Source: Hexactinellida sp. DTS-2022 (Eukaryota > Porifera > Hexactinellida). From it: a stretch of DNA of 64,000 bases. The notes under the pieces were generated by a model. It searched no databases. It saw nothing but the letters and a program-made list of their open reading frames with translations, and was not told the origin of the DNA. The translations under genes and the position numbers were made by a program. Positions 2,165-24,400 of this stretch are shown here, in pieces. The stretch lies in assembly GCA_028753945.1 (NCBI GenBank), contig JAPNXP010000010.1:2545042-2609041 (forward strand). The letters are read 5' to 3'. How positions within the stretch are numbered: the first letter of the stretch is position 1; each line of letters starts with the position of its first letter.

Positions 2165-3250
2165 TTATTAGTCGTGACCTTCGTTATATAAGGCCTTACT
2201 AGTTACTACTGAGTAGATTTTACTGGATCATGGATTACTTAAGGCCATTGATTATTAGCTGACATATCTTTATCTCAATAGCTAGTAATGACAGACCTCA
2301 GAAATGCATTATAATTATATAGGAAGTTAGGAACATGATATCAAGGCATATATAACACCCTCTAGAATTGTGATATATCACCATTTTATTAGGTAACCGC
2401 TATTTTTCGTGGGAATTATCGTGTTTTAATAGCCTGCTTTTAACATAGTTAAACGCGTTATAAATGTTCAAAATTGGAACAGCAGGTTGTCCATAACTAG
2501 TTGAATTAAATATATCGAAATTATACTGTTGACACATTCCTCGGTTGCCAGGGAAATGTATATTTCCTAAATGAGTCATAACTCAAAAACTATGCTAGTA
2601 CTGATCTATCCGCAATAGATAACTCCCTATTCATTAATGATAAATTTTCTAGGCCTAACTTCAAAAATCTTTGAGATAATAGTCAGGTCGCTTAACATCG
2701 ATTTCGGGAAACGCTGGACAAAAGCACCAAATTTTTAAACGTGACCTTTATGACCCCGGAATAAAAATTTTCCGCGGCCCCACGAAGAACGGATACATTT
2801 TGGATGTTACCTTGGACTTTTAAAATTGCGGCTCTCTACTAAATTGCCGGTATTACCCCGAACGGCTACTTTCCAAAATCAACTCTGGTCTACTTTTAAA
2901 GACCAGATTCGTTGTCCACATGAAATTCCCCGTCGTTTAAGGGGTCACTTGCCCATAGTTTATCCCTAGCAACGCAATAATGTCTCAGGAATGTGACAAC
3001 ATTCCTTTCTCAAAATTTGTCCTAAGCCTATCGAGTGACCCCTTGTTCGACTCCCAACAGCTATCTGAGTCTAGTTATAAACATAGTGACACTCTAAATT
3101 GTTATTTGATGCTGTTTACGACAATTCCTTAGTTATCATTACTCTAATAGTCCACCAGTGGGTAAAAGAACCCAGGTGAACCATTCAAGAATTTAGCCTT
3201 AAGTAACATCAAATATACATAATATACTAACATACTTTATAGTTAAAGTA
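2165..3250 (+). repeat. Dispersed repeat B, copy 1
   Basis: A repeat of about 1.1 kb opens with GTGACCTTCGTTATATAAGG. It occurs inverted at 14100-16260, and its first part recurs in direct orientation at 46378-46900. It carries short inverted pieces such as GGAATGTTGACACATTCC-like hairpins. There is no coding sequence. At 2616-2617 the TA dinucleotide is empty, whereas the inverted copy carries a MITE at the corresponding point. Confidence 0.7.
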
Positions 3251-3790
3251 TAGTAAAACTCGGTTAAACGCACCAACCTGGGAAACAAGAAAAGGTACGT
3301 ACTAACTGAGATACGTCTTATCTGTACACATAATCCACAAGTCGAAATACTGACTTGTTTGATGGTATAAATACGATGTAGGGTATTCAAGTCTTTAACA
3401 TACTTAATACTTAAAGATGAGATTAAACTATTTCGTTTTAACCTACTCACTTAAACCAATTACTAACTGAGTTCTGCTAATAGTTTTCTAGAGTACGTTC
3501 TAACCGATTTAAAATACAAGTATATTTATTTACTTGGGAATAGAAATTGGTACGTAATATCTGAGTACGTATTAACCAAATCATTTTATAGTGGATCAGA
3601 TAGGAGGAAAAATCGGCTAATAGAGTATCAGGGGCGGCGGAAGCGGTCAGGCCGGCCAGGCCAATAGCCTGAACAGTCCTACGTCACTAGTTAGGCCGGC
3701 CAAGCCATGGCCTGACCACTTTATAACTGCTTCCGCCGCCCCTGAGTATGTAGTATCCGAAAGTACGTCTTAAGACTCTTAACCCTACTT
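3251..3790. mobile_element. Tc1/mariner-type MITE, copy of the 49471-49913 element
   Basis: Sequence from 3251 matches the element at 49471-49913 (AGTA(A/G)AACTCGGTT..., ACAAGAAAA, CACAAGTCGAAAT). It interrupts repeat B just after AAAGTATA, consistent with insertion at TA. The right terminus has decayed. A GC-rich element is nested at 3629-3744. Confidence 0.65.
3629..3744. mobile_element. Short GC-rich MITE
   Basis: The inverted ends CAGGGGCGGCGGAAGC and GCTTCCGCCGCCCCTG are perfect. AGTAT lies directly on both sides (3624-3628 and 3745-3749). The ends look hAT-like, but a clean 8-bp duplication is not visible. GGCCGGCC blocks give it a strong internal palindrome. Confidence 0.75.
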
Positions 3791-3799
3791 CATGCAGCT

Positions 3800-6590
3800 G
3801 CAGGAACAGTCAATTTGCTATGATGATTTCGTGAGTGTGTAATTTGTCGGGACCTAGCAGCAATATTTCTAAAAACTCTGTTAAGTTAACTAAAAGATTT
3901 TAGAGCTTAACTGAATACTGCCGAAAGCTTTTTCATGAATTTCTAATTCACTACAATTCTTTTGAATCATAAGAATGAACTTTTATATTCAAAAATCATC
4001 AAGACATTCATATTTTGTCAACATTCAAATTTTTTTGGAAAATTTTGTTCAATATTTTGTCCAAAAAATGGTGACAAATTTTTTTCTTTGAAACGAAAAA
4101 GCCTGAGAATAAAGGAAGTTAGTCTTACTTTGAAAACTACATCATGTGGAGCCATAATATTCCATTTTGGATAACATATTTCAAACGATTCGGACGCATA
4201 CTACTAAATGTACATCAATATATTAAAACCACTAAAGTTTGTTTTTTTAACGATGGATGACGAAAAAAGATTAGAAAATTCCGTTCGGTCCCACAACTCT
4301 AAAAATATACGGGTAAAACATTCAAAAAAGGGTCTATACATTGAATTCCATAACTAACATGTTTTGCACAGCCAAAGTTTACATTTTAAGGGTAATCTGT
4401 ATTGATATTCGGACGTTCACGGTGAATCTCAGAATTGCATAATTTACTACTAGGAATACTCTAGATGAGATAGAGATTGACTTCTATGATTTTTTTTTTC
4501 TTAATTTTCAATCAAGATGGTGTTTTTTAATAAAATAAGACGTCGACTTCCTTATATGGGCATGACATTTTTTCAAAATTGTTGAATCTTTTTGAATTTT
4601 TGAACATATTATTATGAGACTATTTCCTCTCAGTAATAATTTTTATTTTATTTATTTTTGCAGAAGAAACGATGCTAAAGGGCATTTTTTCAAAATAATC
4701 ATAAAACGCAGTCGTGCACTAAACTATCGTTATAAAATGTTAGAAGAAAAAATTTTCAATTCTAGTTCAAGGGTCTGAGGATGCATCATGTGTTACCCCA
4801 GAGAAATTTTTTGACTTTCTGATTATTATTTTTGGTTTTATAAGCATTCTAAGGCTGCGGCCCACGAATTTTTCCGAATTTCAACATCAAAAGAGGTGAT
4901 AAAATTCTACACTGCCATATATTGTTCCCAAAATTAAAAATATCGGAATCTACAGGTCAAAATATACAGGTTCACGTCAAAAAGTTCAGGAATATGTCAA
5001 AAATTAGGAAATTAGGGGCATAAAAGAATATGAAGGGTATGCAAGTACCCGGTGATCATATATTACTGTGGGAAATTGGACAGCAGAATAATTCTGTTAT
5101 TCTTCATAAAAATGCGCCAGCTTCTTATCTATGCGTAGCATTTGTTTTCAACACTTTTACAATAATATATCATGAGTTATGACCAATTTATGACTATGGT
5201 TTTGTCTGTTTTGTCATATTTTCACACCTCAAGGCCCTCAAATATACAATAAAGTATTATATAAAACACCAATTTGGTAATACAAATATGGAAATAGCAT
5301 TTGCGCACAAAATGAGACGTTACACAACACGATCCAATCATTATTCGATAAGTTATGGACTTTTGGGCCACAGAAGGGGGCAAAAAATCTGACATTTCAC
5401 ACCTGTTGATATTTCAGAAACGCTTTGAGATAAAATGATCATAGGCATTAGAAAATACTGTAAATACCTGACTTTCTATACGTTTATAATACATTTTAGG
5501 ACTCTAGGTGTCACACTTTTTAACATGACCATATATGGTAATTTGATGTGCCCAATTTTGATGACGAAGCAAATTTTGTAACTCTTGATCTCTGGACAGC
5601 AGAGACTAGCTCTAAAATTCTAGTCACATCATGATACTATTTCTTACTCATTGGATAAACTTTTGGGATTATATTATAATTCGAATGATGTGTTCTGATT
5701 TCAAATGCCCAAATATGGTGGTGTCAAAGTGGCAATATGTTAAAAAGCTGACAAAAATCCAACTTCTGATCCAAATGAGATAGAGCTTAGCTCTAAATTT
5801 CTAAAAATAGTCTAATTCAATTTCAAATGACATTATCTATTTTATGCAGTTTAGGAACTCCTTTTCCTCGCACTTTCATATTCTGGACTCAGCCACTTCG
5901 ACACAAATTAATTAAATGCTAATTATGAAGGTGTAAAAAAAGACCATTTGGGCATATGGATGTAAAAAAGAGAATTTTTATTCTAGAAAGTCAAACTTTT
6001 TTTTAAAATGCTCAGTATATGTAGGCGCATGTTTTAAAAGCGGGCAGTTTTGGCAATATAATACAAAAAAATTGAATTAGTATACTTTTAATGAAAAATA
6101 GTGGTTTTTTTTTGACCAATTTCACAAAAATGACAATAACATAGAGTAGATTAAAGAAAAAGCATATTTCGGTTCGATTTAAAACATTGAGTATTGACTC
6201 AGGTATATTTTATAATTGACATGTTTCGCGCTAAAAACTAACATAAAAATTTTTTGTAAATATTTGGCTAGTATGGATTAGGCCTATATTGACATTGTCT
6301 AGTTCATAACTAAGGATATATACATAGTAGAACTCTAATATTTTCAGGGATATCTTAGATATATTAGTACTATCCAAAAACGCAATAAAAACATTAGGTC
6401 GTCGGGTGTCAAAATATCAGTACAGAGTACCCTTAATATTTCTAATTGAGGTGGCATTCAAGTGGCGGATGACACTTTTATGCTATGTTATCATTTTGAT
6501 ATTTCAAAAAAACTTTTTTATGATCGAAATCGATAGAGTATATAAAGACATGTTTAAATCGGAAATCTTTTGAAATTTGGAGTTTATTTA
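3800..6590. other. Long AT-rich stretch without a gene
   Basis: I find no reading frame worth calling. Positions 6240-6430 resemble 20760-20940, inside the CACAGTG-ended element: both have AAAAACGCAATAA, then TCGGGTGTC. Part of this stretch is therefore probably an old relative of that family. Ends were not found. Confidence 0.45.
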
Positions 6591-6659
6591 CTACGTTTTT
6601 TGGCACTGCCACACTGTGTGGCGATTAGGCAGTCTAAGGTTAAGTCCAGTATATCTATA

Positions 6660-7117
6660 TTTAGTCGGGTCAATATGTTGTATGACCTCAAAAAATGCAA
6701 GAAATTGTTTTATTGCATTTTTCCGTAGTACAATGTATGGGGAATAACATACTAAAAGTCTAGCGAAATCGGACAACCAAAAGTGAAAAAAATGGGGTCC
6801 AAAAGTTGGTGTCCGGTCGAAAATCGCTGGATTGTGTATCCACGTTAGCCATTTCAAATGCATTTAAAACAACTAATTGTTGTCATATTCGTGCTCAGCA
6901 TCAAATTTCCGACAATTTGATATATATTTTGACCATATGGGGGGAATTTTGTATGGGAACCTCCATAGCAACGGCCAGGAATGTGAATTTCCTGATCTCC
7001 AAATTTGGTAGAATCCATATTGAGTGACCCCATGTTTTCCTCGGCTATGTTTACCGAGTACGAATTAGCTAATATAAATACTCTAACGGTTTAATTTAGA
7101 AATATTATAGTTTACGG
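6660..7117. repeat. Left long inverted terminal repeat
   Basis: About 458 bp, paired with 13099-13562 in inverted orientation. It ends 26 bp before the stop codon of the nuclease ORF. Confidence 0.7.
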
Positions 7118-7142
7118 CTGGAGACTTAGCAGAAAGATACCG

Positions 7143-8333
7143 TCACATTTCTTCATCATCATCATCTGATGCTACCCACTCGCCCCATATTGTCACAGTT
7201 GTGTTCTTGGCATCGTCCACATACATGAGAACAGTTAAGTCCTTGTTTCCTGCAGCTACACTTGTGTGTCTACAGCCGGTAGAACAGTTACAGTGTATCA
7301 TTTTCAAAATTGCTTCGCGTGCAGGATTAGTGTCCATCATGACTGGGATTAGGCTGTTACCTTGGCGGTCCCATCCCCATTCGGTGACCTCCATACCGTC
7401 AGCCATGTCCATCCACAACATTACCTGGAGATAACTCCTCAGAGAGTGAAATTTCGTTGCAGAAACAGTAGGTGGCAGCCTTTCTGGTGTCACGAAGCTT
7501 TTGGCTGCGCAAACTTTCTTGCAGAGGATATTATATCTCAAGTCACGAAGACTGTCACCGGGCTTTGCATTGAACAATGCAATCATGGATTTGCAACCAG
7601 TGCTTACTATCACAGCTGGGTCTTGCTTTGGTGTAGAAAATACCCTAGCGTAGCTTTGTAAGACGGAATCTTCTTTCATCATTTTGTGTAATGCAGACTT
7701 TTTCCCGAGCCCAAAAATGCTGGAAGTTGTGTCACACCCGGTGAATGCGTGAAGAAACAGCAGACTTTGGCAGATGTTGACTCCAAGCATCTGCTTTATG
7801 ACCATTATCTCATACACTACTGTTGGTATCCCTTTATCAGAGCGGAAATAATTCTTCTTTGCATTGTTGTTAAATGTGCAGTGTAACAACAGAACGAACA
7901 GATCAGTATCCTCCCCTAGAAGAGTTGTTGTTTTGAAGGATGTCATTGATACTGCTGCCTTCAAAATGGTAACATCGGCATCTCCCTCAGCTTGTATGAC
8001 GTGGCAACCTCTTTTCCTCATACGTTCGGAAATGAGACAGATGAGGGCCTGTTTGTTGACTTGATTGGAAAGGAAATCCTCCTTACTCCCAATGAAGACG
8101 GTTGCTTCGGTGATATTTACTTTGTTGCCAACCCGATTCTTTCTTAGTCGTCGCTGATGGGTATTGTCCTTTGTTGTTGGACCTCCGCTGTAGCCATCAA
8201 AGACAACGGTGGCATTGCCATAATGATCTACAGTGAATGATGTATAGTCATCAGCGATTGAACTGTAGGTTCTTCCTTCAGCCCATTTCAAGCGATGCAG
8301 AAGGGAACCCCCATCTAGAACGTAATGTTCCAC
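7143..8333 (-). CDS. FEN1/XPG-like nuclease domain protein (C-terminal part of the element gene)
   Basis: An open frame of 396 residues. The FEN1/XPG active-site pattern is present in order: VFDG (D46), AEGDAD (E116, D118, D120), GEDTDLFVLL (D142, D144), and TGCDTTSSIFGLGKKSA (D201 plus a helix-hairpin-helix-like loop). Established members of this fold use these acidic residues to bind two metal ions and cut flapped or branched DNA. The C-terminus holds a Cys/His cluster (CNCSTGCRH) and an acidic tail. The listed start is a GTG, and the frame stays open upstream to about 8447. It is therefore more likely a continuation of the larger gene than an independent protein. Related unclassified proteins occur in many invertebrate genomes (from memory). 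Whether this one still cuts DNA is inference. Confidence 0.75.
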   Translation of the reverse strand: MEHYVLDGGSLLHRLKWAEGRTYSSIADDYTSFTVDHYGNATVVFDGYSGGPTTKDNTHQRRLRKNRVGNKVNITEATVFIGSKEDFLSNQVNKQALICLISERMRKRGCHVIQAEGDADVTILKAAVSMTSFKTTTLLGEDTDLFVLLLHCTFNNNAKKNYFRSDKGIPTVVYEIMVIKQMLGVNICQSLLFLHAFTGCDTTSSIFGLGKKSALHKMMKEDSVLQSYARVFSTPKQDPAVIVSTGCKSMIALFNAKPGDSLRDLRYNILCKKVCAAKSFVTPERLPPTVSATKFHSLRSYLQVMLWMDMADGMEVTEWGWDRQGNSLIPVMMDTNPAREAILKMIHCNCSTGCRHTSVAAGNKDLTVLMYVDDAKNTTVTIWGEWVASDDDDEEM

Positions 8334-8485
8334 TTCGGGAACATACTCTAGCAGGCCTGCGCCATCTGAATGGATTTTGAGATGTTCTTTCAGAGCGTCA
8401 CGAAACTGTGGCTTATCTGGCTGCTTTAACTGATTCTAACCTGAAATAGTGATGGAGTGTATGGCAAAAGTTCATGGTCCATTGC

Positions 8486-9136
8486 TTAATTTAGCGACAG
8501 GTATCCTGATTGCAATACTACAAGAAACCTCTGGAACAACAAAGCTGGATCTATTGTTCTGTCCTCGGTCACTTCGATTGCCCTCGCTGATGCCATTGTC
8601 TTCACCTTCATCTTTCTTTTGTATGAAAAGGAAAATACCTCTTGTCCTTCCATTTTCCCTACTGTGCCCTTGCCGATGGTGAACAGGTTATGAATATTAA
8701 CATCCTTGTTTGCATTAACACCAGTAATTATGTTACGTAAAGATGCTTCATCAGAGAAAGTAGAAAATGGCTGGAGTTTCTCTACTAACTTCTTCATGTC
8801 TGCATGATCTCTGTTCATCCTGGACGCTGTTGCCTCCTTGTGTTGTTCACTGGTAGTGAATATCTGGCGGGTAAACCCGCATTGCATCATTGTAGTTTGC
8901 TAACACATGTGAAGACATAGTCCAGAGAGCTCGCTGATGTTCGGTCATTCCGCTTCCTCGAGTGAGCCCCCTTATACTTTTAATCGATCGCATAAGAGAT
9001 TGCTCGATGACCAGATCGCAACCGAGGCCTGCCCAATACTGGTCACTACGTCTGATTACGTGGAAGCCATTCGAGAACTTATGGAATACAGACGGGTTTT
9101 CGTTTTCTAGTTCATTCATAGTCTGGAGGTAGAGGT
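8486..9136 (-). pseudogene. Middle part of the FEN1-like element gene, frameshifted
   Basis: Two overlapping minus-strand frames (8847-9119 and 8486-8890) carry conserved-looking text, including HVIRRSDQYWAGLGCDLVIE, then LTRGSGMTEHQR. They overlap in different frames, so at least one indel separates them. A second break separates them from the nuclease frame at 8447. The upstream side is cut at 9137 by a hAT element. Across that insertion the reading resumes at 9997, giving a continuous AYLYLQ...MNELEN sequence. I know of no function for this middle region. It is seen only with this gene type. Confidence 0.65.
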
Positions 9137-9996
9137 TAGAGCTGTACCGGTTTAGAGATTCTCTACTCCGGCCGGATCCGGATATCCGGTGCTCAATTAT
9201 CCGGTTATCCGGCCGGATATCCGGCTAAATATGTATTTGACAAATGAAACCATAATATTACATCAATAACAAGTTCTGCTTATTCATAATTAAATTGTCC
9301 ATAAACTAAGCTTGTGTTTTTTTAGGGAGGCTTCTAAAATCTTTTATGTGATTCCACAATTCATACAGTATATGAATATACTTTCAATCGCATTCACCTA
9401 TGGTAAATAAGATCTTTTCAATAGCATATTTATTTTCGATTCCTATATATTATAGCTTGAAAGGTTGCATTTTTTATCAATCCCAGCATGAGTGAAATTT
9501 GGCATTTTTCTCACTATCTAATAACAATTCTTTCAGAGCACTCTGTAATGAATGTGATGCCAATACATATATCACGTGGTAAAAATCCTAAACATATAGC
9601 ACGTCTCACTGTGGAACCACATAAAACATTCACATCCAGAAATTTACAAAGAAAAAACAATAAATGAAAATCCTCTTGTAGAAATTCACAACAAGGTGAT
9701 CATAGTATTTTTTCAATCAACTAGTTCTGCTATTACACACTATCTAAATTCTATTCCAAGAATATCTATACAAGAAAACCTATACCAGACATTAGAACGA
9801 CAGAAAAAATGGACAGTTAATGACCCTAGAGCTATGCAAATTCATTTGATATTCGGAGAGAAAGTTATTCTTTAATTCATACACAAATACAAATGGGACC
9901 GTTATCCGGCCGGATAGTTGTTAATACCCGGTTCCGGCCGGATATCCGGTAATTGGCCGGATACCGGATTAGAACCGGATATCCGGTACAGCCCTA
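9137..9996. mobile_element. hAT-type element inserted in the FEN1-like gene
   Basis: Ends are TAGAGCTGTACCGG and CCGGTACAGCCCTA, with the 8-bp duplication GTAGAGGT at 9129-9136 and 9997-10004. Both subterminal zones are packed with CCGGATATCCGG-like palindromes. The AT-rich interior has no coding sequence, so it is non-autonomous. Confidence 0.9.
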
Positions 9997-11344
9997 GTAG
10001 AGGTAGGCAGTTTTCAGATAATTTGCATGTCCAGCTGCTGCAAATATGGGTAAACAGGCCGACAATGCATGAAGGTGCATTTTCCAAGAGCCTGTACGAT
10101 CTGCTTCAATCAGCTCCCCGGCAACTCCTACCATTTGCTTATAACTTAGCCACAGCTTGCTTGTTTCAGATCGAGCGGATAGTTCATGTGTTTGGTGGAC
10201 AACACGCGGATCGTTTCCTTTAAGTACTCGGATTGGATGAGTGAATTGAAGTCAGACTCACCCATCAATGTTTTAGTATATAACTTCTCTAGTTCCTGCA
10301 ATAGGTTTTTAAATGCAGGCTGGTCAGTGATTACTTCGTCTGCAACTTGTTGAGTAAGACATTGATCAATAAGGAGATGTCCACGGAATGCCCGTTGAAC
10401 TGCCTTTCCGCTCATGATGTGTAATACGGCGTTCTCACCGTAAATGGCCCCAATAATCTCTTTGATTCCACTACCATCCATTAGTGTTCCTATGGCCCCA
10501 AGAAGGTTCATGAAAGTGTGAAAGCTTCCCAGTAGCAACACAACGCCTCGAACTGGACTGTCATCTGGTACCTCTTGTTTTATTTGTGAAGCTTTCCAGT
10601 AAAGCGGTTGGTCGAATGTGACAATTGCTGGGCTTTTGTGCTCGAAAGCAAGCTTGCACAGATACTCAAGTGTTGAGAAGATACATGTCTTGTCCCCGGG
10701 GTACATATCAATCATTGGTAAGAATATCACAGAGGATTGTCCTGGGTGCTCACAGTCCTTGTGCAAAACGTGCATCATTCCTTGCCAATTCGGTACAGAT
10801 TGTTTGAATCGGAAGGACATTTCCCACAGTATATCTATCCTGTGATCAGCAGCTTCAAGGAATGACAATGGCAGGAATTTAATGCTGCGACGCAAGTGTG
10901 CCGAGAACCGGCATTGTTTAACATCAACTTTGGTCAGGTCAGCTATATGTAAATCCGAAAGCTTTCGTCTGAATATAGACTGACAGACTTGCTTTCCTGG
11001 TGTTATGGCTGCCATCATCCCCATGCCGTGGAATGTTTCCTTTCCATCCAAGGTAACAATGTTATGATCTACGTTGTCGGCCACAAACAACAGCGTCATA
11101 TCTAGTCTGTTACTATCACCACCTAGACATCTGGTGCAACGGAAGACGCAGCATTTTCCTCGAATCTCTGAACCTCAGAATATGAGGAGCTAAAGCCCAT
11201 GGCTGAGAGGCTATCTACCAAAAAACGTGACCTAAAATGATGGTGCATCTGGACAGCTAAGCCAAGCTGTAATGGGGCAATCAAAACTCTGGGAAGTGCT
11301 GCTTGGACAATTGAATGTCCAATGCTTGCTACTTTCCGGCGAGT
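9997..11344 (-). pseudogene. Central part of the FEN1-like element gene
   Basis: The main frame at 10146-11099 (317 residues) begins with LLFVADNVDHNIVTLDGK and a HGMG motif. It contains a glycine-rich hydrophobic block (LLLGSFHTFMNLLGAIG) near its middle. Downstream, 9997-10145 continues in another frame with KMHLHALSVCLPIFAAAGH. Upstream, 11105-11344 reads on with PRVLIAPLQLGLAVQMHHHF and SRFLVDSLSAMGFSSSYSEV. All pieces are collinear on the minus strand, so this is one gene broken by small indels. The DN...LDGK and HGMG motifs hint at a metal-dependent core, but I do not recognise a named family. Confidence 0.65.
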
Positions 11345-11900
11345 GCCTTTCCAACAAGGATACGTTGGAGAAAATAACGCAAGCTCGTTGGAACATACTC
11401 TAAGGCTGACTGTATCTCAAGTCCAGAAGTTTTTGGATACTCATCAGTAATAGGGGAGTTCTTCGACTTGAGGTCACTCTTGACAAGTCTGGCTGCAGTC
11501 TCTATGATGAGTCTCTTCTGGGATTCCTCATCATCCACTATTGGCATGCTGAAGTATTCTTTCAGGATTTGATTAGTCTTCTCGCGGAATGTTACAATAT
11601 CATGCAACCCTTCACCCTCGGCAATGAATATAGACTCCCCATAATGTTCCAACAGTCTCGACTTCAGATACTGATGACCATAGGCAACACAATCTCGTTC
11701 TTTCAGATACTCTTTCATCTTACTCGAAAGACAGGTGATTGTCAATTGTTCTTCATCATTTTACTCAAAGAAGGAGCACATTCTTCGGAAGGCTTGATCT
11801 TGGTCGCTGTCCTTTGGCCTCCCAATCTTCCTTTGTTTCTTGTGAATAGGGTCGTCTGCTTTGTGCTGTATAGGAATATCCCGGGTTGTTCGAAAATGTA
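11329..11900 (-). pseudogene. N-proximal helical part of the FEN1-like element gene
   Basis: Minus-strand frame 11329-11745 (138 residues) is charged and probably helical (SKMKEYLKERDCVAYGHQYL, then EGEGLHDIVTFREKTNQILK). Upstream, 11746-11900 continues in a shifted frame with basic text up to the boundary of a Tc1-type MITE at 11901. No domain is recognised. Its place between the Cys/His N-terminus and the central block is constant with a single ancestral gene. Confidence 0.6.
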
Positions 11901-12463
11901 CACTAACCGGCCAAAAGTATTTGAACAGCAATAATTTGTATTCATATATTTGAGGTTATACAACATAATAACATTACTAGATGCTACAAAATGGCAATTA
12001 ACATGAAACGATATATAAAGTATAATAAAACAGCAAAATCTTTGAATTTACATTTTTATTGAGGCGTTAAACTCATTAAATATATAATTAGCTAATTAAA
12101 TAATTAATTATTGATCATTAAGATGCAATGTTAATATTTTAATTCTGATCGCGGATTTGAATTCCACATGGTTAAATTACTCTAAGTACATAATTTCAAA
12201 TCAATCCGAATATTTTCTACTGTGATTCAGCCACATTTCCATTTGTGCCACTTATGCCACAAGTGGCACGTGGCAGAAACACTTGTGCCACTTCGTGGAA
12301 ATTTTCTAAATTTTATTGAAATCGCAATATTTTGTAATGTATATCTATAATAAGAGATTTTTAGTCATTTCAGAATAGTTTAGATAGCCGTTAATAAGTT
12401 ACCAGGCGAGTATTGTCTGTGCATTATAATTCCTAATGTTCTAATACTTTTGGCTGCTTAGTG
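11901..12463. mobile_element. Tc1/mariner-type MITE inserted in the FEN1-like gene
   Basis: Ends CACTAACCGGCCAAAAGTAT and ATACTTTTGGCTGCTTAGTG are inverted, with TA on both sides (11899-11900 and 12464-12465). Same family as 28528-29076: both carry CCACTTGTGGCA palindromes near the middle. Non-coding. Confidence 0.85.
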
Positions 12464-12960
12464 TATATCACATGAACGATGGTACAAACTATCAACAGCG
12501 TGCATGTCTCTCCCAAAGTACTCGATTCGCCCTAGCACAGTAAAGCCCCATTCATCATTTCGTTGTTTACAATGTGACAAGATCGACTGCACGAATGAAT
12601 CAGTTTTGACATAGCTAAAGTAGTCATAATTCGCACTAATAGTGCTCTTCACTACTTCATTTCCACAGAACAGACAGTCTATCTTACTATCATATGGTCC
12701 TGTGGAAACACGTGCACTTCTTTTTAATTGTTTTGGTGGTCTTAGATTGGCATTCTTCTTATATAACTCGATGTATGTGTTGTTGACATAATTTTTCCAC
12801 ATAACTTGTGAACGCCTGTCCCCGCTATTACCACGATGGTGTCACCTCTCTCAATGCTTGCCCTGTTGATGCCTTCTGCTCCTTTCTCACCAATGACCAC
12901 TCTTGCATATCCTTCTACCTCATTCTCACACAAAGGGCAAATTTCTTGGCTCGGGCTCAT
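12464..12960 (-). pseudogene. Cys/His-rich N-terminus of the FEN1-like element gene
   Basis: Two overlapping frames (12742-12960, 12458-12802) each hold a zinc-ligand-like pattern. The first has CPLCENEV with a later HKLC. The second has CLFCGNEV with a later YHRSC. Each looks like a treble-clef or ribbon-type zinc module. One frameshift near 12780 separates them. The second frame runs directly into the MITE boundary at 12463. The first ATG, at 12958-12960, is a plausible start for the whole gene, and the right inverted terminal repeat begins about 140 bp upstream of it. Confidence 0.6.
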
Positions 12961-13098
12961 ATCAATATCTAATATGCTAATACAAATATTAGTAAATTAT
13001 TTGGAAATAATCTTTTAGACAAAATTGGAAAAACAATACAAAATATAACGAGTTTTATTAGTTATTTCCATTTAATTAAGAATTTAATATACCCCCAT

Positions 13099-13562
13099 CC
13101 GTAAACTATAATATTTCCAAATTAAACCGTTTGAGTATTTATATTAGCTAATTCGTACTCAGAAAGCATAGCCGAGAAAAACAAGGGGTCACTCGATATG
13201 GTTTCTACCAAAATGGAGATCATAAATTTTCACATACCAGGCCGTTGTTAGGGAGGATTCAAGAAAAAATTGGTCAAAATATATATTAAATTGCCGGAAA
13301 TTTGATGCTGAGTACGAATATGACAACAATGGGAAGTTTTTAATGGATTAAAATTGGCTAACGTGGATACACAAAACCGGCGATTTTCGACCGGACATAA
13401 ACTTTTGGATCCCATTTTTTTATACTTTTGGTTGTCCGATTTCGCTAGACTTTTAGTATCTTATTCTCCATACATGATACTACGGAAAAATGTAATAAAA
13501 CAATTTCTTGCAATTTTTTTGGGGTTGGGGGTATTTGCTTCATATTTTGACCCGACTAATTA
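13099..13562. repeat. Right long inverted terminal repeat
   Basis: About 464 bp, the inverted partner of 6660-7117. It would form the 5' flank of the minus-strand element gene, so any promoter probably lies in it or in 12961-13098. Confidence 0.7.
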
Positions 13563-13565
13563 TTA

Positions 13566-13990
13566 AATCTCGATTGTTGTTTGTGTGTTTGTTTGTGTGT
13601 TTGTCCGGATTATATTAAAGTGATGGGGGAATAGAAACCGCAATTAATATTGGGATATAAACTAACTTTCAAATGTTATAATAGGTAAACAAGTATGCTG
13701 AACACGAATTTGGCGTTTAGAAATTTCTCATATTAATATTTGTTGTTGTTGTTTACACAAAATAGGTTAACAAATTAATGAATATTCAAATCAACCTAGA
13801 AGTTAGCTTCCAACGGGTATTATTGGTAAACAAGTTTAAACCATGGAAAATGGTAGAAAGGCTTGTTATAACATCCACTACCATTTTGCATGGTAGCAAA
13901 GGATGATAAGGCCGCATAGCGGCCGTTAACTTGAGGTGTGTAGCACCGATCCGTCGCAAAGTGACCGAGACCGAAGGGCTCGTCACCATT
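13566..13990 (+). repeat. Dispersed repeat C, copy 1
   Basis: Opens with ATTAAATCTCGATTGTTGTT, then alternating GTTTGTGTG and a TTTGTCCGG step. It holds GATGGGGGAATA and ends near GCATAGCGGCCGTTAACTTG and GATCCGTCGCAAAG. The same order of landmarks occurs at 30505-30905. No inverted ends were seen. A Helitron-type origin is possible but unproven. Confidence 0.5.
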
Positions 13991-14924
13991 ATGTGTTAAG
14001 TGCCCAGCCTGTTTCTAGCTACACTCAGTTCTCTCTAAACGTCCACTTCTCTATTTGCCCACCTTAATTAGTTTCGATGATATTTAAGCTAGCGTCCACA
14101 TGGTCCCCTAACTACAGATGGGCTAGTAAAGATCAGATTTTATTACGTATTACTTACGTACAGTTCATACTCCCTAATAGTTTATATTGACTCTATATAT
14201 TCTCGACTATATTTGCTTGTACTAATATACTTTAACTATAACGTATGTTAGTATATAATGTATATTTGATGTTACTTAAGGCTAAATTCTTGAATGGTCC
14301 ATGTTCTCTAGTAGTCCACCTGGGTCCTTTTACCCACTGGTGGACTATTAGAGTAATGATAACTAAGGAAATTGTCGTAAACAGCATCAAATAACAATTT
14401 AGAGTGTCACTATGTTTATAACTAGACTCAGATAGATGTTGGGAGTCGAACAAGGGGTCACTCGATAGGTTTAGGACAAATTTTGAGAAAGGAATGTTGT
14501 CACATTCCTGAGACATTAATACGTTGGTAGGGATAAACTATGGGCAAGTGACCCCTTAAACGACGGGGAATTTCATGTGGACAACGAATCTGGTCTTTAA
14601 AAGTAGACCAGAGTTGATTTTGGAAAGTAGCCGTTCGGGGTAATACCGGCGATTTAGTAGAGCCGCAATTTTAAAAGTCCAAGATAACATCGGAAATGTA
14701 TCCGTTCGTCGTGGCGCCGCGGAAAAATTTGATGCCAGGGTCATAAAGATTACGTATAAAAAATTTGGTGCTTTTGTCCAGCGTTTCCCGAAATCGATGT
14801 TAAGCGACCTGACTATAATGAGTGTATTACCATATAAAGATTTAAGTGCTAATAATCTCATTATTTCAAAAAATATTGAAGTTAGGCCTAGAAAATGGAT
14901 TATCAATGAATAGGAAGTTATCTA

Positions 14925-15098
14925 CAGTCGACTCCGCTTAATTGAGCCAGGTTGTTTTGACCCGATTAAGCGGAGAAACCGATTAACCGAAAATATTGCA
15001 AGCCAAACTGTAATTCTGTCCTATAAATCCTGTGAAATTTTGACCCGATTAAGCGGAGAAACCGATTAACCGGTGGCTCTATTAAGCGGAGTTGACTG
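14925..15098. mobile_element. 174-bp Tc1/mariner-type MITE with an empty site in the window
   Basis: Ends CAGTCGACTCCGCTTAAT and ATTAAGCGGAGTTGACTG, with TA at 14923-14924 and 15099-15100. Repeat B copy 1 has a single TA at 2616-2617 in the matching context (ATAGATAACT in that orientation). The motif GATTAAGCGGAGAAACCGAT is repeated inside. A fragment of the same family lies at 31563-31612. Confidence 0.9.
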
Positions 15099-15294
15099 TA
15101 TTGCGGATAGATCAGTACTAGCATAGTTTACATAATATTAATATCGATAGTTTTTGAATTATGACCAGGGGTCTCTCTAGACCTCTATCAGAAGGTACAT
15201 TCCCTTCTTGAAAGCTATTGTACCCTTTATTCACATGTTGCATGTGGGCATGTACCCTTTTAGTCAATACTATTATTTGAAGGATTCATTAAAC

Positions 15295-15772
15295 CAGTGG
15301 TGTCAAACCTTTCTAATTCACAGGACAATTTCTGATTTTACAGTCATTACACGGGCCGCAGGGTAATTTACGTGATTATATTCAAGAATTTTCATTCTTG
15401 TATTACGATGAGTACAATACTAGTTAATTACTTTAGTATAATAGTATAATGTCATTAAGAGGCAACATTCAAATAATAATGTTTTTTAAGCTAACTTTTT
15501 GCTCGTTTGGCACTGCTTCCCTTCGACCATCTCATCCAAATTTGGTGCAATGGATGAAAACAGCAAGCCTTAGCTTAGAATGCAGTCTAGATTACTCTTT
15601 GTACAAATACAGCTTTGGAACAATGCAATGTTGTTTCCATGATTAATCGATATAGTCGACATTTAAAATTGCTAAAAGTGAATACAAGAAAAATCAGCTC
15701 TAGGTGACTCATGATTCCTTAGTTACATAGCGGGGCACAAGTGGCCCGCGGGCCATAGGTTTGACACCCCTG
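15295..15772. mobile_element. hAT-type MITE
   Basis: Ends CAGTGGTGTCAAACC and GGTTTGACACCCCTG, with exact 8-bp duplication CATTAAAC at 15287-15294 and 15773-15780. The one 65-codon frame inside has no recognisable domain. Confidence 0.92.
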
Positions 15773-16669
15773 CATTAAACCATTGACATTAACGTCATAT
15801 CTCATTCTCATGTACCCTTCAACGAAAAATCCAGGCGAGAACCCTGGTTATGACTCATTAGGAAATATACATTTCCCTGGCAACCGAGGAATGTGTCAAC
15901 ATTCCATTTATAATTTCGATATATTTCATTCAACTAGTTATGGACATCTTGCTGTTCCAATTTTGAACATTTATAACGCGTTTAATTAACTACGTGTATG
16001 TTGAAAGCAGGCTATAAAAACACGATAATTTCCACAAAAATAGCGATTACGTAATAAAATGGTGATATATCACAATTCTAAAGGGTATGCCTTGATATCA
16101 TGTTCCTAACTTCCTATATAATTATAATGCATTTCTGAGGTCTGTAATTACTAGCTATTGAGATAAAGATAAGTCACCTATTTATCAATGGCCCTTAAGT
16201 AATCCATGGTTCGGAGTAGTGGTAAGGCCTTATATAACGAAGTTCCCGTACTAGTTTATTATACAAAGGATTTAAGCAAATTAAATTAACTAAGGAATTT
16301 GTTTGACTTATCTATTTATATAATTTTATTATTTATACATTGTTAATGAATTACATCAAACACAAGATGGTTTAAGAAAAAACAAACTCCCATTATCAAT
16401 TGTCCGTTTGGCTCGTGACCACCTGATAAGTGAGTGTTAAGTTATTTACATCTTGAGGGGTTGATAGCGAAAAAATCCAAAATTGCAGCTGTGACGACCG
16501 CATTTCCTTTGAAGGTACGATCGATTAACCAGCCACCATAATATAGTCCATCCAAAGTAAATGCCATCAAAATAGAAGCAATTTGGGATTTTTTTATTAT
16601 CAGTAGACGGTGCCCTGGCCAGTGGCCACGTTTTAGATAAAGAGCTGCGAATTCGATTGAGGTGCGAAT

Positions 16670-17400: not shown

Positions 17401-20400
17401 CACAGTGGGAATTTTCAGGGGTGTAAGTGGAAATAGGAAAACTATGCTAGATAGACTCTAATGAAGTATTATTGACATATTAGTTATCGGTAGCTGCAAA
17501 CTGAATAGCATTATCGAAAAAGATGTACGTATTCTCCTAAACGTAGTTCTAGACAATTCATGTTAATTCTGTCATAAATTATACTTTAGGTTTGTCAACA
17601 AATTTTTATTGTTCACCCATGATTATTGATTATATTTCTTGAACAAGGTATAATTTTTTCAAAAAATCCTAATATATATGGTTCAAAGTTTTTAAGTGAC
17701 CCACGTCGCGCCTTTTTGCGCATTTAGAATTTTTTTAATATGAATATTACATCACCTCGGTTTTAGAGCTAGTAGAACCCAGTTTTTGACAATATTGTTG
17801 AGATCTCAGTATGTAAAAAGTATGTTTCCACTAATTTGCCGACAGTTCAGCTCCCTGCTAAACTTTAATTCATCAAATTGACACGAAATCGTTTGATATT
17901 AGTCAGATTTTAAATCATTGTAATCCATAACTCACTAGATTCGAGTTAAGAAATTCAAAAGCTTCCTTGTTATGCATAAAAAATAATTTTAATTGAAGGA
18001 GTATAATTTGTACTTGAATCACTTATCTTAATAAATTAATTAATATTAAAAGAAAATATCTATGGGAAAATTTTTGCGCATCTGGAATTTGGTTTATATC
18101 GAAGTTAAATATGTCTACTTTATATTAAAAACACTAAAACGCGCATGAGCCTGGACACGATATTTACCATCACATTGAAGGAGGGGGACTAAGCAAGAAT
18201 TTATTGTCCGAATCGTATATTTTCCATTAGCCACATCCCATAATCAATTTATACTCAACAGTTATAATGATATCTAATATATATAATTAAGGACGTTTCC
18301 AGTTGTTTCTTTTGATGATAAGAAGTATTTATCATCAAAAGTGTCCTAACAGTGCCACTGATCCTCCACTAACTCAATTAACATTCATTTAAAATCCTAA
18401 TATCGAGAAAAACCAATTTTTGTGTGCAATGACTGTCAAAAACTCCCAAATTGATAAATTAATGGTTTAAGGATGTTTCTAATTGTTTCTTTTGATGATA
18501 TGTAGTGTTTATCATCAAAGGTGACTAACAGTGCCACTGAAACTTTACTAACTCAATTAACATGCATTTAAGAGCCTAATTTTGTGTTAAACCAATTTAT
18601 GTGTGCAATGACTGTCAAAAACTCCCAAATTGATTAATTAATGGTTTAAGGACGTTTCCAGTTGTGTCGTTTGATGATATGAAGTATTTTTCATAAAAGG
18701 TGAGTAACAGTGCCACTGAAATTTAATAAACTCAATTGACATTCATTTAAGAGCCTAATAAAGAGAAAACCAATTTTTGTGTGCAATGACTGTCTAAAAT
18801 CCAGAAAATGAAAAATTAATGTTTTAAGGACGTTTCCTGTTTTTTCTTTTGATGATATGAAGTATTAATCATCAAATCTGTCCTAACTGGGCAACTGAAA
18901 ATCCACTCACTCAAATTACATTCATTTAATAGCCTTAAATCGAGAAAAACCAATTTATGTGTGCAATGACTGTCAAAAACTCCTATATTGGAAAAATAAT
19001 GGTTTAAGGACGTTTCCAGTTGTTTCTTTTGATGATAAGAAGTATTTATCATCAAAAGTGTCCTAAAGGTGTCACTGTAACTCCAAACTATATTAACATT
19101 CATTGAAAAGACTAATATGAAGAAAAACCAATTTTTGAGTGCAATGACTGTCAAATACTCCTAAATGATAAATTAATGTTTTAAGGACGTTTCCTGTTTT
19201 TTCTTTTGATGATATGAAGTATTAATCATCAAAAGTGTGCTAACTGTGCCACTGAACCTCCACTAAACTCAATTAACATTCATTTAAGAGCCTAATATCG
19301 AGAAAAACCAATGTTTGTGTGCAATGACTGTCAAAAACTCCTAAATTGATAAATTTATGGTTTAAGGATGTTTCTAATTGTTTCTTTTGATGATATGAAG
19401 TCTTTATCATCAAAGGTGACTAACAGTGCCACTGAAACTTTACTAACTCAATTAACATTCATTTAAGAGCTTAATATTGAGAAAAACCAATTTTTGTGTT
19501 CAATGACTGTCAAAAAGTCTCAAATAGATAAATTAGTGGTTTAAGGACGTTTTCTGTTGTTTCTTTTGATGATATGATGTATTTATCATCAAATCTGTCC
19601 TAACTGTGCCACTGAAAATCCACTCACTCAATTTACATTCATTTAATAGCCTAATATCGAGAAAAACCAATTTTTGTGTGCAATGACCCTCAAAAACTCC
19701 AAAATTGATAAATTTATGGTTTAAGGATGTTTCCAATTGTTTCTTTTGATGAAATGAAGTGTTTATCATCAAATCTGTCCTAACTGTGCCACTGAAAATC
19801 CACTCACTCAATTTTCATTCATTTAATAGCCTAATATCGAGAAAAACCAATTTATGTTTGCAATGACTGTCAAAAACTCCAAATTGATTAATTAATGGTT
19901 TAAACCATGTATATCAGAATATTCAAAAGAGAAGTCATTCTCAAGAACAGTGTTCTCAAAATCTGCAATGAAGCATTAGTAACTTTCTATAACCGCAAAA
20001 TAGAAATTCCAATTGTCAAAAATCTAATACTTTGAATAGTCATAACAACCAAAATATTTCTTTTAAGGAGATACAATGGTGGTTTTATACAAATGTGACT
20101 AAATACCATATTTCCTGTATTAGCATTTCCAAATATACTTTGACATGCCAGTTTTCCAATTCTGAAAATAAAATTCGAAATTTGACACTATTTTGACCTT
20201 TTTGACGTCACCAAAGGTCAAAATCATCTTATAGAATAATATGGCCATCGAGGGGTAAATAATTGTAAATTCATGAAAAACGATAAATTTAGTTTAACCT
20301 CTCCTAGTTATTGTTTGACATGCTATCTATCCAAATCCAAAAGAAAAATTTGATTCGGACATTTTTTTTTTCCCTTTTTGACGTCACCAAAGGTGAAAAT

Positions 20401-21503: not shown

Positions 21504-22625
21504 CAGGGATGGATCCACCGGGGGGGTTCAGGGGGTTGCACCCCCCAAAAAATGGCTTAGGGGAGTGCGAACCCCCCAAAGAATATAATAATATAATCCA
21601 AAAATTATATCTAGGGACTGGCACAAATACCGAGATTAGTTGAGAGAAATATATCAGAGTTCTCTTCCCTATCTAATACTTTTGAGAATGTTGTATATCA
21701 AATATGTTGAAAAAATAGTCAATTAATCGTTGACAGTTGATTCATAATGATTGTTGGTAATGGATAGTTTAATTAATTAATTTGATTATTAATTTATAGT
21801 TATGTATGAATTTAGAATAGATTTCTTTGACGTATATTAATTTCAACTTTTTCCAAAGATGCTTTCTCAAATGCGTTTCTTAAAAAAGAATTCCAAAAAC
21901 TGGTACAGTTGACCCGCAAGCGCACCATGGCGTCGACAATTCTAAGGCCCAACCCTGGGCATTACACCCTCCCAGATATTTTGTGCTGGATCCATCCCTG
22001 ACAGGGAATGAAAGGTTCACGAACGAACTTATTGAACTTGAACTGAACGAACTGAACGCAGGGCTTTTAAGCAATTCACGGTGAACGAACTGAACGCAGG
22101 GCTTTTAAGCAATTCACGGTGAACGAACTGAACGAACGCCAACGGTTTCCGAACGGAAATTGAACGAACTGAATTGAACGATTTGAACGGATTGAACGAA
22201 CTGAACTGAACGAACTAAACTGATTAAAGATAAATTAGAAATATTGATCCATTAAATATAATAGGTGACTGCAAGAGGTAATTCAGGACATCTCTAGTGG
22301 ACTCCTGTCTGTTAGCTTAGATTCTAGCTTCTTAACCTGAACTTCAATAACAGCTTGGAGTATCGAACAGTCTATCATAAACGGAATAGTTCGACCCACT
22401 CACTGTACACTGAACTAATTGAACGGTTTGGACGAACTAAACGAACTGAACGAACTTAATTGAACGGATTGAACGAACGCGGGTCAGCCCATGAACGAAC
22501 TGAACGAACGCTGGAGGAGCTGAAGTTAGGAGGTGAACTTGAACGAACTGAACGTGCGTCGATTTGAGATGAACTGAATTACATCAATTCTGTCCGTTCG
22601 TGAACCTTTCATTCCCTGATCCCTG
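21504..22625. mobile_element. hAT-type element split by a second hAT
   Basis: Ends CAGGGATGGATCCACCGGGG and GTGCTGGATCCATCCCTG. Flanks AGTTAGAA (left) and AGTTATAA (right of the nested insert) form an 8-bp duplication with one change. The inner element at 22002-22618 lies in its last bases. G-rich and C-rich strings near the left end explain the frames there. Confidence 0.85.
22002..22618. mobile_element. hAT-type MITE built of GAACGAACT repeats
   Basis: Ends CAGGGAATGAAAGGTTCACG and CGTGAACCTTTCATTCCCTG are perfect, with 8-bp duplication ATCCCTGA (21994-22001 and 22619-22626). Much of the body is degenerate repeats of GAACGAACTGAAC. Confidence 0.92.
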
Positions 22626-23130: not shown

Positions 23131-24400
23131 ATGTCACTAATAAGGCCATATAAAATAAATAACTTGTTATCATCCCCGTTCGTCCCAAATTTACCCACCG
23201 TTCGGATATATTTTATTGTTATCCTATGAACATGATCTTACGGATATTAGCTATAAACTTGTGTAAAGTACTAATGTATAATTAGTCTTGTATTTAGGGA
23301 TTATTTGGACATTATCATATGATTTTCTAAGTAAATTAAATATTAATATTTATTGTTTGGCATAGGATAATGCATAGCATTCTGTACATAAGGCAATGAA
23401 ACGGACTCAAATTTCTGGACCATGGATGAACTAGTATAGTCAACTAAATATATGCAATGCAATTATTCTTCGAAATAAGTAATCCAGGGTGCTTCTACTT
23501 ATGTAATTGTTTTTTATAAAGGTAGTCATGTACAAGACGCATATTTTTGAGGTACCACTTGATCGAAATGACGTCACCGTATTGTCTAATAGGCAAAATA
23601 TGCCAAAACTTTGAACGCATGTAAAATGTTCAATTTCGCTTTTTAAAACAAATTGCTGTGACTAACCCATCTAGGAGTTATTTACATAAAATATCTCAGA
23701 ATCAACTATGGAATGTTGCCACATTCCTCTGTTTCCTTGGATACGTGATTTCAATGCTTGAGGTCATATCTCGAGTATAAATAGTTACAGCTTAGTCAAT
23801 GGATCCAATTGATAGCCCGTCCTAACTTCCTATTCAATGATAATCATTTCGATGCTCTATCTCCAACCAATTTTCCGCAAAATGTGTATAACCATTTGAA
23901 TGTATATTACAATAATCACAATTCTCAGTCGCAACATTCATAATTGATTCAGAGATATTTATGTAAAATTACTCCTAGATGGGCTAGTCACAGCAATTTG
24001 TTTGAAAAAGAGAAATTGAACATTTTACATGCGGTAAAAGTTTTGGCATATTTGGCCTATTAGACAATACGGTGACGTCATTTCGACCAAGTGGTACCTC
24101 AAAAATATGCGTCTTGTACATGACCACCTTTATAAAAAACAATTACATAACTAGAAGCACCCTCGATTACTTATTTCGAAGAATAATTGCATTGCATATA
24201 CTTAGTTGACTATACTAGTTCATCCATTGTCCATAAATTTGAGCCCGTTTCATTGCCTTATGTATAGAATGCTATGGATAATGCTATTTGCATAAAAATG
24301 AAAATAAAAAATAAAATAAAAATCCCGTCCGCCGTCCCTATTTCTGAAAAAATCCGGATGATAAACAATTAATTTATTTTACATGGCCTAAACTATATAT
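23131..24400. repeat. Dispersed repeat D, copy 1, split by a P-type MITE
   Basis: AGGCCATATAAAATAAATAA at the left and TTAATTTATTTTACATGGCC at the right are inverted ends. GTCCGTCCC-type blocks follow. The intact copy at 30022-30395 lacks the 0.9-kb insertion. Confidence 0.8.
23373..24276. mobile_element. Foldback MITE with P-element-type ends
   Basis: Ends CATAGCATTCTGTACATAAG and CTTATGTATAGAATGCTATG are inverted, and the homology runs inward for more than 300 bp on each side. The 7-bp duplication GATAATG lies at 23366-23372 and 24277-24283. Repeat D copy 2 holds the empty site GGATAATGTTATTTGC near 30266. The ends match those of the P-like element at 56645-61279, so a related THAP/P transposase probably moved it. 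Confidence 0.9.

Follow-up and report, generated by a model that had tools for sequence, protein, structure and literature searches.

The 64,000-nucleotide window analysed here (the whole stretch from position 2,545,042 to 2,609,041 of contig JAPNXP010000010.1, assembly GCA_028753945.1) of the hexactinellid sponge Hexactinellida sp. DTS-2022 contains, on the minus strand at window positions 6662-13558, one mobile element that is a real transposon. This 6897-bp copy is dead and very probably derives from an autonomous DNA transposon of the AcademX lineage (superfamily Academ), and its single protein ends in a domain resembling the flap nucleases of the FEN1/XPG family. The initial annotation, made from the letters of the DNA, had placed the element at 6660-13562; the element was confirmed and its limits were corrected to the positions given above.

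Termini, arms and target site

The element ends in 12-bp termini, TAGTCGGGTCAA on the left and TTGACCCGACTA on the right, and is bordered on either side by ATT, a 3-bp target-site duplication (6659-6661 and 13559-13561). The left arm (6662-7121, plus strand, 460 bp) comprises the terminus and a long subterminal inverted repeat. The right arm (13092-13558, minus strand, 467 bp) is inverted relative to it, and the two are 85% identical over ungapped columns when the right arm is reverse-complemented. Their local alignment scores 501 bits, whereas none of 20 single-base shuffles exceeds 22 bits, and the inverted arms of about 460 bp described in the initial annotation are thus real. The two arms represent distinct ends of the element: between them identity is 85%, compared with 97-98% between a window arm and the arm on the same side in the closest other copies.

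An empty insertion site was found at locus L053, another copy of the 2.36-kb repeat that surrounds the element. L053 reads TATCTATTATTAAAAC, and the window reads TATCTATATT, the element and ATTATTAAATC, which amounts to one extra ATT. Alignment of L053 to the right flank is direct. On the left, the match next to the element is limited to 15 bases, owing to a further TTAA-flanked insertion (3911-6639) on that side. The flanks of L053 and the window also differ at a few other bases.

Copies and relatives in the genome

The genome (112 Mb in 18 contigs) was searched with the left arm, which gave at least 45 matches with 40 of 228 candidates scored, and with the nuclease frame, which gave at least 109 matches ranging in identity from 100% to 24% (105 of 195 candidates scored); these scopes apply to all counts of arm and gene matches below. 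Eighteen loci were fetched from the matches as stretches of limited length and examined together with the window (19 loci). One of them, L029, is an uninterrupted copy of 5475 bp with a single frame of 1463 amino acids and serves as our reference. The initial annotation had proposed looking for other copies with the same arms and gene and for target duplications at their insertion sites. Several such copies were found, and eight copies, including the window, have both ends: five are flanked by a perfect 3-bp duplication (GCA, TAT, TTA, TTG and ATT) and three by one with a single mismatch.

Within the fetched stretches, the gene sequence is present in 15 of the 19 loci. No gene match was found in the fetched stretches of L038, L042, L044 and L046, all of which have arm sequence, and due to the limited length of these stretches this is not proof that the gene is absent there; L042 has both ends in a 707-bp form. 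Thirteen of the 15 loci that match the gene with at least 53% identity also have an arm match, and among the scored matches none was found at C5:1555970 and C5:2560991-2565232. Across the genome there are 29 exact occurrences of the 12-bp terminus and 8 of the same pattern read backwards, so that many of the lone terminus sites may be due to chance.

A diverged arm class at 73-74% identity makes up 14 of the 45 left-arm matches. Its likely source, judged from the one example read, is a type of element represented by a 1283-bp insertion within L036 (4695-5977). This insertion has TAGTCCAGCAATATGG ends (TAGTC) and its own TTA duplication, contains no frame of 150 or more amino acids, and includes stretches 72-73% like the arms of the window element; we interpret it as a non-autonomous relative. 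A diverged second family (C16:2407911-2413462, 5552 bp), with a frame broken in two, is 46% identical to L029 in the middle and 38% in the nuclease, and appears to have TAGTCAGG ends (TAGTC) and a TTA duplication.

The gene and its protein

Between the arms of the window copy lies a broken gene (7146-12960, minus strand), whose nine in-frame segments aligned to the L029 protein span all 1463 residues. The single minus-strand gene of the initial annotation is thus matched by a full-length relative, and the Cys/His N-terminus, conserved middle and FEN1/XPG-like end described there are all present. On the minus strand of the window, the N-terminal Cys/His region (residues 1-167, motifs chosen by eye) lies at 12461-12960, an open stretch with the motifs ADNVDHN and FDQPL of the presumed DDE transposase, covering the first part of that domain, at 10146-11099, an open stretch linking the presumed transposase core to the nuclease at 8486-8890, and an open stretch with the FEN1/XPG-like nuclease at 7143-8333, the tail of which diverges from the other copies inside the Cys-rich end. 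In L029, Cys and His residues were located by eye at 8-167 and the Cys-rich tail lies at 1415-1447.

Two small elements are nested in the window gene, both delimited by eye and both visible as gaps in the gene alignment. The first, hAT-like and 860 bp long (9137-9996), has the plus-strand ends TAGAGCTGTACCGG and CCGGTACAGCCCTA and an 8-bp duplication; the second, mariner-like and 563 bp long (11901-12463), has the plus-strand ends CACTAACCGGCC and GGCTGCTTAGTG and a TA duplication. These insertions together with frameshifts break the gene, and therefore the window copy is dead; the two insertions are also the chief reason for its length of 6897 bp compared with 5475 bp in L029.

The middle of the L029 protein contains the motifs ADNVDHN (D441, D444), TFDQPL (D596), GSFH (H627) and DLVIEQ (D839, E843). 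Conservation was assessed in an alignment of 11 stretches, drawn from seven loci in this genome and 19-46% identical to L029; the loci in alignments A1-A3 are a selection from the matches of the nuclease-frame search. Among the loci whose covering frame reaches the position, D441 is kept in 4/4, D596 in 6/6 and E843 in 7/7, and two stray letters at D596 stem from adjacent frames not covering this motif. The Pfam family DUF6589 (PF20231), for which Pfam gives no function and which was named in no paper found by our literature search, matches the middle of three of the ten members of A3 (best E 1.4e-10). When searched with DUF6589, the genome yielded six matches, all above the cut-off and none in the window's own family; two of them (C1:5698853 and C11:5200298) are at places that also have diverged nuclease matches (C1:5700263 and C11:5198813), in each case in a frame of equal length (924 amino acids). 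We read the middle domain as a putative DDE transposase.

In FEN1/XPG nucleases the active-site motifs follow the order DG, FD, acid-A-D, DxD and GCD and are accompanied by GxGK. The L029 protein has these acids in the same order (D1074, D1113, D1185, D1187, D1209, D1211 and D1268), together with GLGKK. They are kept in all seven loci, with D or E at position 1185, and the nearby E1183 is not conserved. The eight-member nuclease alignment A2 has 19 invariant columns, and D1113, D1187, D1209, D1211 and D1268 (columns D34, D108, D130, D132 and D189) are present in all members. A profile of these eight sequences matched a profile of three host proteins, labelled EXO1, GEN1 and XPG from their sequence alone, with a probability of 85.3 (E 5.9e-6). 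A second run with other settings gave a weaker match, with a probability of 48.8 (E 1.8e-4) and a score of 39.8; the highest score among 30 column shuffles was 25.6, and the middle-domain profile, used as a control, scored 12.3. The alignment starts at the DxD acids and reaches the helix-hairpin (GIG) region. Judged from this profile match and the active-site acids, the C-terminal domain is related to nucleases of the FEN1/XPG family, as the initial annotation had recognized. In Pfam scans of the eight members no nuclease family fitted; the matches were scattered, each to a single member (best E 0.0043). Phage records contained no match, and two pattern scans of viral contigs revealed no relative.

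Constraint on the protein was judged from the ratio of nonsynonymous to synonymous substitution rates (dN/dS) against L029 in three copies, L030, L031 and L036, which gave 0.21, 0.24 and 0.23 overall; within the nuclease the ratios were 0.15, 0.19 and 0.23. As all these values are based on a small number of changes (in the nuclease 9, 10 and 6 synonymous versus 5, 7 and 5 nonsynonymous), they indicate constraint and not its strength. Two copies were set aside: L043, an older decayed copy with a dN/dS of 0.74, as expected of a dead copy, and the window copy, whose value of 0.5 is inflated by its frameshifted tail.

Classification

Kapitonov and Jurka reportedly described Academ transposons in 2010 as carrying an XPG nuclease along with a Cys8 zinc finger, which would agree with the Cys-rich tail of the L029 protein (1415-1447); a literature search pairing Academ with XPG found no supporting paper. 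Within the same superfamily, AcademH elements have a large transposase protein. The passage of PMC10045372 that deals with these lineages, citing Kojima 2020, characterizes AcademX by an encoded nuclease and target duplications of 3 or 4 bp and AcademH by a helicase and duplications of 9 or 10 bp, and states that the difference in duplication length seems to be tied to helicase versus nuclease. The sponge element resembles AcademX as described there in its nuclease and its 3-bp duplications, and it has terminal inverted repeats, likewise expected of AcademX, in the form of 12-bp termini and arms of 460 and 467 bp. In contrast to AcademH, no helicase model is among the Pfam hits of the 1463-amino-acid protein and the duplications are 3 bp long. 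The length of L029 (5475 bp) is close to the mean of 5565 bp that PMC10294476 gives for 100 curated Academ elements of bivalves. Because the features match the published description well, we file the element under AcademX. The initial annotation had suggested a possible new transposon class, knowing of no described superfamily that joins such a nuclease to an unassigned middle domain; a new class is not supported, since a lineage with a nuclease and duplications of 3-4 bp has already been named AcademX according to the passage cited (PMC10045372), and the middle has a D...D...E pattern and a DUF6589 match. A similar combination is found in KolobokE, KolobokD and KolobokP, which have a DDD/E transposase and an accessory nuclease according to PMC9587614. 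Their nucleases are lambda exonuclease-like, DEDDh and His-Me finger, however, whereas that of the sponge element is FEN1/XPG-like.

Several observations weigh against an AcademX transposon with a DDE transposase and a flap nuclease. The placement follows from features as described and not from a tree or a sequence comparison with named Academ elements. L029 itself matches DUF6589 below the curated cut-off (E 0.0019 for the whole protein, 0.00033 for the domain), and this was the only match in a Pfam scan of the 1463-amino-acid protein, which gave no nuclease and no named transposase model. Of the two approaches that the initial annotation had recommended for the central domain, profile hidden Markov model searches yielded the DUF6589 matches in three of ten members; structure predictions of two window frames folded alone gave no usable RNase H fold, at a mean predicted local distance difference test (pLDDT) score of 32 and 35. 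A genome search with Pfam XPG_I found six places, none an element copy, and sequence searches of the PDB gave no significant match (the best were YacP with E 0.79 and a TNFAIP3-interacting protein with E 0.5). In the second family the ends were chosen by eye among seven TAGTC and four GACTA sites, and the long inverted arms looked for at these ends were not found.

The fact that the likeness to Academ is known by description alone and that known Pfam models barely match the protein could also mean that the element belongs to a separate, undescribed superfamily resembling AcademX just in its nuclease and short duplication. We consider this improbable, as the length of the element, that of its duplications and the presence of an accessory nuclease agree with the published description. 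Hardly credible is the idea that the arms are an unrelated repeat, either a miniature inverted-repeat transposable element (MITE) or a host palindrome, with the gene between them by accident. Inverted repeats that belong to other elements do lie around the transposon, and both the diverged class among the arm matches (14/45) and the four of 19 loci with arms and no gene match in the fetched stretch would suit arms that occur mostly alone as MITEs; the support that they lend to this is weak. Against it stand the arm matches at 13 of the 15 close gene loci and the 3-bp duplications exactly at the arm ends, five of eight perfect and three with one mismatch. On this co-occurrence and these duplications we rejected the arms as an unrelated repeat; they belong with the gene, as the initial annotation had assumed.

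Possible mechanism

For an AcademX transposon of this kind, the likeliest course of transposition would be as follows. Binding to the TAGTC ends and the inverted arms would be the task of the Cys/His regions of the single protein. The central, presumably RNase H-like DDE domain would cut at the TAGTC ends and join them to target positions staggered by 3 bp. The FEN1/XPG-like nuclease fused to it would trim or nick a flapped or branched intermediate, or process the second strand, at the transposon end or its joint with the target. Together these steps would produce 3-bp target duplications. We infer the DDE assignment, binding to DNA and the point in the process where the nuclease comes into play. 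We tentatively raise the possibility that the flap nuclease is an obligatory catalytic partner in a two-nuclease route, in which one strand is cut by the DDE domain, the opposite strand or a flap at the transposon ends is taken off by the FEN1/XPG domain, and the nuclease sets the 3-bp duplication. As its role in transposition is inference, the nuclease might instead be a passenger of an AcademX-like element and take no part in the process. This is rather unlikely in our view, given that the five acids named above are kept in 8/8 aligned members and that dN/dS is low in three comparisons, albeit with few changes.

The value of the element lies in being a good example of the known Academ/AcademX type, not a new class. 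For this little-studied kind of transposon, one 112-Mb genome offers a copy without interruptions as well as defined ends and diverged relatives, and the role of the accessory flap nuclease thereby becomes accessible to experiment.

Repeats around the element

The 2.36-kb repeat, with inverted arms of about 600 bp, lies at 2680-3910 and 13557-14815 of the window and has been broken up by later insertions. At least 12 paired copies exist besides that of the window (40 of 1728 candidates scored). As a copy of this repeat is also found inside L032 (C5:4055700-4063700), a related copy of the element, element and repeat have inserted into each other. The outer inverted repeats were considered as part of the element and rejected, since they belong to the 2.36-kb repeat that it entered. 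Another inverted pair (2243-2676 and 14820-16193) is the outermost and seemingly represents a further element around the 2.36-kb repeat.

The TTAA-flanked insertion at 3911-6639, which we guess to be a piggyBac- or Kolobok-like small element, contains a second TTAA-flanked element of 2.04 kb (4390-6432) with the ends GGGTA.../...TACCC. The latter is very young and numerous, being present at at least 39 other places with 99-100% identity (40 of 1089 candidates scored). Further along the window, a tandem array of units of about 180 bp (18269-19924, nine copies listed) and a cluster of short TGAACGAACTGAACG-like repeats (22044-22480), two identical 38-bp units among them, were observed. Inverted arms of 349 bp, 93% complementary and spaced by 228 bp, at 23362-24287 are perhaps a small foldback element.

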